DNA of 64,000 bases from Caulobacter sp. Lineage in GTDB: Bacteria; Pseudomonadota; Alphaproteobacteria; Caulobacterales; Caulobacteraceae. Positions 26,830-31,001 of this stretch are shown in pieces (the first letter of the stretch is position 1; the number at the start of each line of letters is the position of its first letter). Below the pieces are notes generated by a model that saw only the letters and a list, made by a program, of their open reading frames with translations, made no database searches and had not been told where the DNA came from. Both the position numbers and the translations under genes were made by a program. The DNA is taken from positions 496,001-560,000 of the forward strand of contig JAUXVF010000031.1 of assembly GCA_030680355.1 (NCBI GenBank), written 5' to 3'.

Positions 26830-27333
26830 TCACTTTTTGCGGAACTGGTCGAGGGAAACGACCTTGGTCGCCTCGGGTTCGGGCCCTGCGTCCGCCGTCG
26901 CCGCCTCGGCGTCATCCGCCTCCTTCGCGTCAAGCGCGGCAGGATCGATGTCGACCATCGGCGCTTCGAACTGCAGGCCAAACTGGACATGCGGGTCGAA
27001 GAAGCGGGTCACGGCCGCATAGGGCACCGACAGTCGCTTGGGCGAGCCGCCGAACTTCAGCGTCACCGTGAAGAAGGTCTCGCCCGGCGCCAGGTCGCGG
27101 TACTGGTGCTGCAGGACGATGGTCATCTCTTCGGGGTACTGGCCGAGCAGTTCGGGCGGCCCGGACACGCCCGGCGCCTGGGTGCGGAAGGTGATATAGA
27201 AATGATGGTCGCCGGGGATGCCCCCGGGCGCGGCGGCGACCTTGAGCGCCGCCTTGACCACGCCGCGCAGGGCGTCCTGGGCCAGCGCTTCGTAGTGCAT
27301 CAGATCTTCGGGCGGTTGCTGTTGCTGGGCCAT
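26830..27333 (-). CDS. sspB: SspB family ClpXP adaptor protein
   Basis: MHYEALAQDALRGVVKAALKVAA...GDHHFYITFRTQAPGV...YPEEMTIVLQHQYRDLAPGETFFTVTLKFGGSPKRLSVPYAAVTRFFDPHVQFGLQF; acidic tail. Confidence 0.88.
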   Translation of the reverse strand: MAQQQQPPEDLMHYEALAQDALRGVVKAALKVAAAPGGIPGDHHFYITFRTQAPGVSGPPELLGQYPEEMTIVLQHQYRDLAPGETFFTVTLKFGGSPKRLSVPYAAVTRFFDPHVQFGLQFEAPMVDIDPAALDAKEADDAEAATADAGPEPEATKVVSLDQFRKK

Positions 27334-27450: not shown

Positions 27451-28092
27451 GTGATGATCTATCGAAGCCTGGCCGCGGCTGCGGCGTCCATGATCGCGAT
27501 CAGCTGCTCGGCTCCCGCGCCCGGCGCGACCGATGCCGCGCCCGACGCCGCTGCGCCTGAGCCTGCATCAGCCACCGTGTCAGAGGTCGCGACGGACCCG
27601 GCCCCTGAAGCGGCCTCGGCCATCCCGTCTCTTTGCGCCGCCGGCGAGTCGGTGGTGTTCAGTTGCGGCGCCGGCGACCGGGTGATCTCGTTGTGCGCGA
27701 CCGGCGGCTCGCCGGTGGCGATGCAGTATCGCTTCGGCCGCAAGGGCGCGATCGAGCTGGCCTACCCGAAACCGGCGGCGGCGCCGAAGGGGGTCTTCTT
27801 CGTCAGCTCCACCCCCTATGGCGGCGGCGGCGAGCGTCGCATCCGCTTCACCAACGGCGACTACAGCTATTACCTCTTCAGCCGCACGATCGCCGGCGAA
27901 TGGGATGCCGAAGGCAATCGGCCCCACACCTTCGAGGACGGGGTCATCGTCTTTCGCGGCGGCAAGCTGATCTCCGACAAGCGCTGCACGACCGAGGTCG
28001 ACAGCAGTGGCCAGGAGAAAGCCGGCGCGGCGCTCGACCAGGAAAACTTCAACGACGAGTTGGAAATCCCGTATCGGCCGGCCGGTCATTGA
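27451..28092 (+). CDS. Hypothetical lipoprotein
   Basis: N-terminal lipobox-like SMIAISC; Ala/Pro-rich linker. Confidence 0.65.
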   Translation: MMIYRSLAAAAASMIAISCSAPAPGATDAAPDAAAPEPASATVSEVATDPAPEAASAIPSLCAAGESVVFSCGAGDRVISLCATGGSPVAMQYRFGRKGAIELAYPKPAAAPKGVFFVSSTPYGGGGERRIRFTNGDYSYYLFSRTIAGEWDAEGNRPHTFEDGVIVFRGGKLISDKRCTTEVDSSGQEKAGAALDQENFNDELEIPYRPAGH

Positions 28093-28099
28093 TGGGAAA

Positions 28100-28430
28100 A
28101 GTGGGGGATTCTGTTGGCAGGCTCCCCCGGGCCCCGCCGGAGGATCTGAACCCCCCGGAGTTTAGGCTGAGTGCGCTAGCACCGCATTACGCGGCGATCG
28201 CATACTCTTCAGCGAAGTTATCGTTCGCAGTTAGTTTAATGGCCCGAAACGGTGAGCCACGCCGAGACAAAGCTACGTCTTTATACGTCTGTCGATGCTG
28301 ATCGGCCCCCTGCTTCCGGCGATAACCCGAAGAAGGATTGGTGGAGCCGCCGGGAATCGCACCCGGGTCCAGTCCGCTTATTACACGCGCGTTTATGTCC
28401 ATAGCCCGGGCAAGCCCGAACAATTTCAAT
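28100..28430 (-). ncRNA. ssrA: Two-piece (circularly permuted) tmRNA: acceptor RNA (3' CCA at 28339) then coding RNA (5' GGGGCCG at 28309)
   Basis: Minus-strand CCCGGGTGCGATTCCCGGCGGCTCCACCA (T arm, acceptor strand, CCA); GGGGCCG at 28303-28309 pairs with CGGCTCC; tag frame gcg aac gat aac ttc gct gaa gag tat gcg atc gcc gcg taa = ANDNFAEEYAIAA* at 28187-28228. Outer ends approximate. Confidence 0.93.
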
Positions 28431-28477
28431 ATAGGGACGAATGGTTGCCGGGGGAAGAACCCCGCCGGCATGAACCA

Positions 28478-29026
28478 TCACATTCCTTCGGGGCCGCGCT
28501 CGATGGACAGCACGCCGGTGCGGGTCAGCTCGACCAGACCCAGAGGCCGCATGAGGTCGACGAAGCTGTCGATCTTGGCCGGGGCGCCGGTGATTTCGAA
28601 GACGAAGCTCTCGGAGGTGGTGTCGACCACCTTGGCGCGGAAGATGTCGGCGACGCGCAGGGCCTCGACCCGGTCGGTTCCCGCGCCGCGCACCTTGACC
28701 AGGGCCAGTTCACGCTCGATGCCGCGTGGATCGCGGGTCACGTCATGCACCCGGCGAACGCTGACCACCTTCTTGAGCTGGGCCTCGATCTGTTCGAGCA
28801 CATGCGGCGCGCCGCGTGTGACGATGGTGATCCGGCTGGTGTGGGCGTTGCGGTCAGTCTCGGCGACCGTCAGGCTCTCGATATTGTAGCCGCGGGCGGC
28901 GAACAGCCCGACCACCCGGTGCAGGACGCCGGACTCATTGTCGACGAGCAGGGCGAAGGTGGCGAGGTTCTCGACCTCGCCGGCATGGGAAAGGTCATAG
29001 GCCGAGGCAGGCTGGGGATCGGTCAT
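28478..29026 (-). CDS. ilvN: Acetolactate synthase small subunit
   Basis: FALLVDNESGVLHRVVGLFAARGYNIESLTVAETD. Confidence 0.95.
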   Translation of the reverse strand: MTDPQPASAYDLSHAGEVENLATFALLVDNESGVLHRVVGLFAARGYNIESLTVAETDRNAHTSRITIVTRGAPHVLEQIEAQLKKVVSVRRVHDVTRDPRGIERELALVKVRGAGTDRVEALRVADIFRAKVVDTTSESFVFEITGAPAKIDSFVDLMRPLGLVELTRTGVLSIERGPEGM

Positions 29027-29183: not shown

Positions 29184-31001
29184 TTACACCAATCGCCGGC
29201 CGGCGTCGTCGATCACCGAGCCCATATCTTCCCCGCCGTCGGGCAGGATCATCTCGTTGTGGGCCTTGCCCGACGGGATCATCGGCAGGCAGTTCTCGTT
29301 CTTCTCGACGCGGCAGTCGAAGACCACGGGACGGGGGCTGTCGATCATCTCGAGGATTTTCGCGTCCAGCTCGGCCGGGTCGGAACAGCGGATGCCCACC
29401 GCGCCATAGGCCTCGGCCAGTTTGACGAAGTCGGGCAGGCTTTCGGAATAACTGTGTGAATAGCGCTCACCGTGCAGCAGCTGCTGCCACTGGCGGACCA
29501 TGCCCATCCATTCGTTGTTGAGGATGAAGATCTTGATCGGCAACTCGTACTGGATCGCGGTCGACAGCTCCTGGATGCACATCTGGATCGAGGCTTCGCC
29601 GGCGATGTCGATGACCAGGCTGCCGGGGTGGGCGAGCTGGGCCCCGATGGCGGCCGGCATGCCGTAGCCCATGGTGCCGAGGCCGCCGGAGGTCATCCAG
29701 CGGTTGGGCTCCTGGAAGCGATAGTGCTGCGCCGCCCACATCTGATGTTGCCCGACCTCGGTGGTGATGTAGGTGTCGCGGTCCTTGGTCAGGGCGTAGA
29801 GGCGCTCGATGGCCTGCTGCGGCTTGATCACCGTCTCGGAGGCCCGGTAGCTGAGGCACTGGCGGGCGCGCCAGGCGTCGATCTGCCGCCACCAGTCGTC
29901 GAGGGCGTTGCGGTTGGCGGTGTGGCCGCCGGCCTTCCAGGCGGCGATCAGGTCGTCCAGCACGCTGCCGGCGTCGCCGATAATGCCGACATCCACCCGC
30001 ACGTTCTTGTTGATCGAGGAGGCGTCGATATCGATGTGGATCTTCTTCGATCCCGGCGAGAAGGCGTCCAGCCGCCCGGTCACCCGGTCGTCGAAGCGCG
30101 CGCCGACGCAGATCATCACGTCGCAGTCGTGCATGGCGTTGTTGGCCTCGAACGTGCCGTGCATTCCCAGCATGCCCAGCCAGGCCGGATCGGCGGCCGG
30201 GAAGGCGCCCAGGCCCATCAGGGTCGAGGTCACCGGCGCGCCGGTCATGGCCGCGAAGGCGCGCAGGCTCTCGCTGGCGCCGGGGCCGGCGTTGATGACG
30301 CCGCCGCCGGTATAGAAGACCGGCTTGCGGGCCTTGGCGATCAGGGCCACGGCTTCGGCGATGCGGTCGGGGTTGCCCTTGGTCTTGGGGGCGTAGCCGT
30401 GGCTGAAGGTGACCTCGTCGGGCCCCTGATAGACCGAGCGGGCGAACTGGATGTCCTTGGGAATGTCGATCAGCACCGGGCCGGGCCGGCCGCTGGTGGC
30501 GATGTGGAAGGCCTCATGGATCACCCGCGGCAGGTCGGCGGCGTCCTTCACCAGGTAGTTGTGCTTGGTGCAGGCGCGGGTGATGCCGACCGTGTCGGCC
30601 TCCTGGAAGGCGTCGGTGCCGATCAGATGGGTCGGCACCTGGCCGGTGAAGACGACCATCGGAATGGAGTCCATCAGGGCGTCGACGATGCCGGTGATGG
30701 CGTTGGTGGCGCCGGGGCCGGAGGTGACCAGGACCACGCCGGGCTTGCCGGTCGAGCGGGCGTAGCCCTCGGCGGCGTGAGTGGCGCCCTGTTCGTGGCG
30801 CACGAGGATATGGCGCAGACGATCGCCGTTGCGCTCGCTGTCCTGGAACAGGGCGTCATAGATCGGCAGCACCGCGCCGCCGGGATAGCCGAAGATGGTG
30901 TCGACGCCCTGGTCGACCAGCGCCTGCACCACGATCTCGGCGCCGGTCATTTCGCGGGCGGCGGACTGGGAGGGGGCGGTCTTGGTGGTCGAGGCGGTCA
31001 T
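29184..31001 (-). CDS. ilvB: Acetolactate synthase large subunit
   Basis: VDTIFGYPGGAVLPIYDAL, HEQGATHAAEGYARSTGKPGVVLVTSGPGATN. Confidence 0.97.
   Translation of the reverse strand: MTASTTKTAPSQSAAREMTGAEIVVQALVDQGVDTIFGYPGGAVLPIYDALFQDSERNGDRLRHILVRHEQGATHAAEGYARSTGKPGVVLVTSGPGATNAITGIVDALMDSIPMVVFTGQVPTHLIGTDAFQEADTVGITRACTKHNYLVKDAADLPRVIHEAFHIATSGRPGPVLIDIPKDIQFARSVYQGPDEVTFSHGYAPKTKGNPDRIAEAVALIAKARKPVFYTGGGVINAGPGASESLRAFAAMTGAPVTSTLMGLGAFPAADPAWLGMLGMHGTFEANNAMHDCDVMICVGARFDDRVTGRLDAFSPGSKKIHIDIDASSINKNVRVDVGIIGDAGSVLDDLIAAWKAGGHTANRNALDDWWRQIDAWRARQCLSYRASETVIKPQQAIERLYALTKDRDTYITTEVGQHQMWAAQHYRFQEPNRWMTSGGLGTMGYGMPAAIGAQLAHPGSLVIDIAGEASIQMCIQELSTAIQYELPIKIFILNNEWMGMVRQWQQLLHGERYSHSYSESLPDFVKLAEAYGAVGIRCSDPAELDAKILEMIDSPRPVVFDCRVEKNENCLPMIPSGKAHNEMILPDGGEDMGSVIDDAGRRLV

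Follow-up and report, generated by a model that had tools for sequence, protein, structure and literature searches.

A predicted circularly permuted two-piece tmRNA gene upstream of sspB in a Caulobacter-type alphaproteobacterium

Introduction

tmRNA is a rescue RNA that frees stalled ribosomes and tags unfinished proteins for destruction, and in nearly all alphaproteobacteria it is encoded by a two-piece gene. The tag of C. crescentus ends in EEFAVAA. The C. crescentus model consists of a 213-nt coding chain and an 83-nt chain, the coding chain carrying the resume codon GCG at positions 82-84 and the stop codon UAA at 121-123 (PMC1168896). Transcription, excision of a spacer, pairing of the two pieces, charging, ribosome rescue, tagging and proteolysis are the established steps in this family (PMC3985003; PMC11915505), in which adaptors of the SspB family bring tmRNA-tagged proteins to ClpXP (PMC3985003; PMC8138137).

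Here we describe a tmRNA locus within a 64,000-nucleotide stretch of Caulobacter sp. DNA, the whole of which was analysed and is referred to as the window. The locus resembles the C. crescentus tmRNA (RF01849) in its permuted order, its two-chain architecture (the two chains being predicted here), its alanine acceptor and the form of its tag. Unlike in C. crescentus, the tag ends in EEYAIAA instead of EEFAVAA, the latter ending being also seen in many relatives. With the tmRNA_permuted family (RF04321), which includes beta-proteobacterial and cyanobacterial members, it shares a two-piece tRNA-like domain (PMC11915505), whereas its highest score is obtained with the alphaproteobacterial model, which also spans clade-specific 5' and 3' regions. 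The one-piece E. coli type (RF00023) likewise combines tRNA-like with mRNA-like logic and has a tag that ends in AA; the locus differs from it by its permuted gene order.

Results

Searching the window with the Rfam covariance models returned a match to alpha_tmRNA (RF01849) on the minus strand at 28460-28100, over the full length of the model (1-355), with 230.4 bits and an E value of 1.6e-65, the curated cut-off being 50 bits. The only other Rfam match within the window is to tmRNA_permuted (RF04321, 126.7 bits) at the same locus. One-piece tmRNA (RF00023) was not reported by Rfam in the window, and ARAGORN called no tmRNA gene at the locus. A genome-wide search gave a tmRNA copy number of 1, a second copy being sought in the genome and not found. 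The sequence-only reading had called a circularly permuted two-piece ssrA and proposed the alpha_tmRNA model as a check; both scores, together with the order of acceptor before coding segment, bear this call out. Of the limits that it gave, 28100-28430, the 28100 end fits, but the conserved gene reaches about 28460 when its promoter is included. The RF01849 score is among the lower ones found in relatives, as might be expected of a decayed or non-functional tmRNA copy; we regard such decay as extremely improbable, given that this is the sole copy in the genome, that the acceptor pairs, CCA, tag and stop are all intact and that SmpB and SspB are retained.

Reading along the minus strand, the functional gene would comprise a promoter, the acceptor piece, a 29-nt spacer, the coding piece with the tag and a terminal hairpin, with the following elements:

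28457-28452, minus strand: possible -35 element CTTCCC, of which CTT is conserved in 35 relatives
28428..28433, minus strand: -10-like TATATT, of which TATAT is conserved in 35 relatives
28339..28421, minus strand: acceptor piece, predicted 83 nt, from the RF01849 alignment and the length of C. crescentus chain B
28366-28350, minus strand: T arm CCGGG-TGCGATT-CCCGG, read in the sequence
28349-28343, minus strand: acceptor 3' strand CGGCTCC, read in the sequence
28342-28339, minus strand: ACCA, read in the sequence, with the CCA end at 28339
28310..28338, minus strand: internal spacer of 29 nt between CCA and GGGGCCG, presumably removed by processing
28097..28309, minus strand: coding piece, predicted 213 nt, from the RF01849 match (to 28100) and the length of C. 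crescentus chain A
28309-28303, minus strand: GGGGCCG, 5' end of the coding piece, read in the sequence
28187..28228, minus strand: tag frame ANDNFAEEYAIAA followed by UAA, the resume codon being GCG at coding nt 82, from the sequence and the C. crescentus positions, kept in relatives
28137..28158, minus strand: hairpin helix 3' of the tag, 7 pairs, 5 of them changed on both sides across relatives
28103..28128, minus strand: 3'-terminal helix GGGGGA/TCCCCC, then ACTTTT; 6 pairs, 5 of them changed on both sides

The acceptor piece contains a 5' hairpin, the 5' strands of helix 2, the T arm, the acceptor 3' strand and CCA. Its CGGCTCC (28349-28343) pairs with GGGGCCG (28309-28303) over 7/7 positions to form the acceptor stem, with a single G-U, G3·U70, the alanine identity pair. 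The T arm, the acceptor strand and the CCA end at 28339 described from the sequence are all found, and GGGGCCG, which had been placed about 30 nt past CCA and paired with CGGCTCC through one G-U, follows a spacer of 29 nt. In the coding piece, the hairpin at 28137..28158 is probably part of a pseudoknot, and the 3'-terminal helix may also serve as a terminator. At the 3' end of the tmRNA on the minus strand, a terminator scan made no call, the loop of the hairpin exceeding the length that it permits.

Counting 83 nt back from 28339 predicts a 5' end at 28421, where the conserved 5' hairpin begins, 7 nt after TATATT (28433-28428), a spacing that fits a promoter. A scan for the sigma-70 consensus found no promoter match at the tmRNA locus, so that the promoter assignment rests on conservation. 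Two pieces issuing from separate promoters, and not cut from one precursor, would yield a two-RNA end product of identical appearance; this arrangement is nevertheless highly unlikely, as the spacer is 29 nt long and variable, the conserved TATATT precedes the acceptor piece only and the published model is that of a single permuted precursor (PMC3985003; PMC11915505). Among relatives, the spacer varies in length and sequence and mostly measures 28-39 nt. Two Caulobacterales loci, L058 (G042:C4) and L056 (G058:C17), have permuted tmRNA matches (456 and 465 bases) that are much longer than the roughly 360 bases seen otherwise, and L058 has a 126-nt spacer between the tmRNA pieces.

The permuted tmRNA was found in 61/61 Caulobacterales genomes searched, and the permuted model was matched by 136 of 143 genomes drawn across Alphaproteobacteria, the class in which, to judge from these matches, the permuted form is standard. 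One alphaproteobacterial genome gave only a weak permuted tmRNA match (G143:C7:644392-644555, 33.9 bits), and another (G152:C54/C63) gave several short T-arm/acceptor matches below the cut-off besides one full tmRNA match. In an alignment of 35 relatives, the 47 pairs of eight helices are standard pairs in 94.2% of cases, and 25 of the 47 have changed on both sides, a count that exceeds all 500 shuffles (mean 13.8) and all slid controls (2-9). Compensatory change in the proposed helices is thereby strong. The G-U at acceptor position 3 is invariant in 35/35 relatives. The acceptor helix scores lower in this covariation alignment, an effect that probably stems from the shifting of some rows by the aligner; in a separate scan, its pairs are 7/7 in all 64 loci reported, pairing having been a condition for reporting.

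The codons GCG AAC GAT AAC TTC GCT GAA GAG TAT GCG ATC GCC GCG TAA (28228-28187) encode ANDNFAEEYAIAA in an internal frame that has no start codon and ends with AA and UAA. Counted from 28309, the resume codon falls at coding nt 82-84 and the stop at 121-123, the same positions as published for C. crescentus. The tag, with the Tyr-Ala-Ile near its C-terminus, therefore reads as the sequence-only reading had claimed. An unusual or unique tag is ruled out: 14 of the 64 loci scored carry an identical tag and 13/64 carry YAVAA, in a set that is biased, 18 loci having been retrieved by pattern-searching for the Tyr variant and some loci duplicating others. The tag endings among the scored loci are EEYAIAA, EEYAVAA, EEFAVAA, EEFAIAA and EEVRLAA, and the Tyr variant comes from records labelled as Caulobacter, Brevundimonas, Caulobacterales or the like. 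The predicted Tyr/Ile tag is ordinary variation within the group, several variants occurring in Caulobacter-labelled genomes.

The tag frame is also the end of an open reading frame of 94 aa (28187-28471, minus strand), and its being open over 94 codons could denote a real protein gene with an incidental likeness to tmRNA. The probability of this is vanishingly small: the ORF has no Pfam match, the RF01849 and RF04321 matches contradict a protein gene, and many relatives close the frame ahead of the tag by stops, including L051 and L052 with the same tag, yet keep the tag and the RNA structure. Because of these stops and the absent Pfam match, the 94-aa protein is ruled out and the ORF, already called spurious from the sequence, is a frame that happens to be open across an RNA gene. 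This is of consequence for annotation, since ARAGORN leaves the locus without a tmRNA and the ORF listing places a spurious 94-aa protein there.

The genes surrounding the tmRNA are as follows:

29184-31001, minus strand: acetolactate synthase large subunit gene, upstream of the tmRNA
28478-29026, minus strand: acetolactate synthase small subunit gene, upstream of the tmRNA
27451-28092, plus strand: 213-aa ORF between ssrA and sspB, in reverse orientation
26830..27333, minus strand: gene for the SspB proteolytic adaptor, functional partner of the tag (PF04386, 145.6 bits; PDB 2qas and 2qaz at 1e-63 or better)

The sspB gene thus lies inside the window, about 0.76 kb downstream of the tmRNA and on the same strand, and SmpB is encoded elsewhere in the genome (PF01668, 199.6 bits). 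Of 61 Caulobacterales genomes, 48 show the order tmRNA then sspB, on one strand and within 5 kb, as do 99 of the 129 alphaproteobacterial genomes having both genes; in 93 of these 99, the two are within 1 kb. Where the genes are unlinked, they are on different contigs in 23 of 30 genomes, for which draft assembly may hide linkage. By a rough estimate, the chance of such ssrA-sspB proximity is well under 1% per genome. In two genomes of the same genus, a further and weaker SspB match lies close to the first (G019:C1:1349201-1350122 and G034:C10:231431-233714); it may represent a duplicated adaptor gene that has diverged. The N-terminus of the 213-aa ORF at 27451-28092 resembles that of a lipoprotein, and the ORF is matched by no Pfam family. 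It is matched in 4 of 60 relatives and occupies the same position only in G025, and this rarity makes it look like a recent local insertion.

Discussion

Two covariance models, covariation among 35 relatives, occurrence in every Caulobacterales genome searched and agreement with the C. crescentus coordinates argue for a permuted ssrA with the tag ANDNFAEEYAIAA. On this sequence evidence, the locus is almost certainly a functional, circularly permuted two-piece ssrA of a Caulobacter-type alphaproteobacterium, whose one transcript would be cut into two predicted pieces. The gene is an ordinary example of the normal two-piece type.

By analogy with the family, one transcript would begin near 28421 and tRNA-processing enzymes would cut out the 29-nt spacer between CCA at 28339 and 28309, RNase P probably making the 5' end of the coding piece. 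The two pieces, held together by the acceptor stem and helix 2, would form the tRNA-like domain, which may be charged with alanine via G3·U70. With SmpB, the tmRNA would enter ribosomes stalled on broken mRNAs and append AANDNFAEEYAIAA, and SspB, encoded just downstream, would help pass the tagged product to ClpXP for proteolysis.

The linkage of ssrA and sspB may already be known; a literature search on this neighbourhood, which did not cover the primary alphaproteobacterial SspB paper, returned nothing evidently about it. A wider reading would be that ssrA-sspB is a conserved neighbourhood across Alphaproteobacteria in which the tag and its adaptor evolve together as one unit, the changes from Phe to Tyr and from Val to Ile being matched by changes in SspB. 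We hold this reading to be speculative and rather unlikely, the linkage being its observed part. A tag-encoding RNA adjoining the gene of the adaptor that reads the tag, in most of the class, would make the co-evolution of tag and adaptor testable from genomes.
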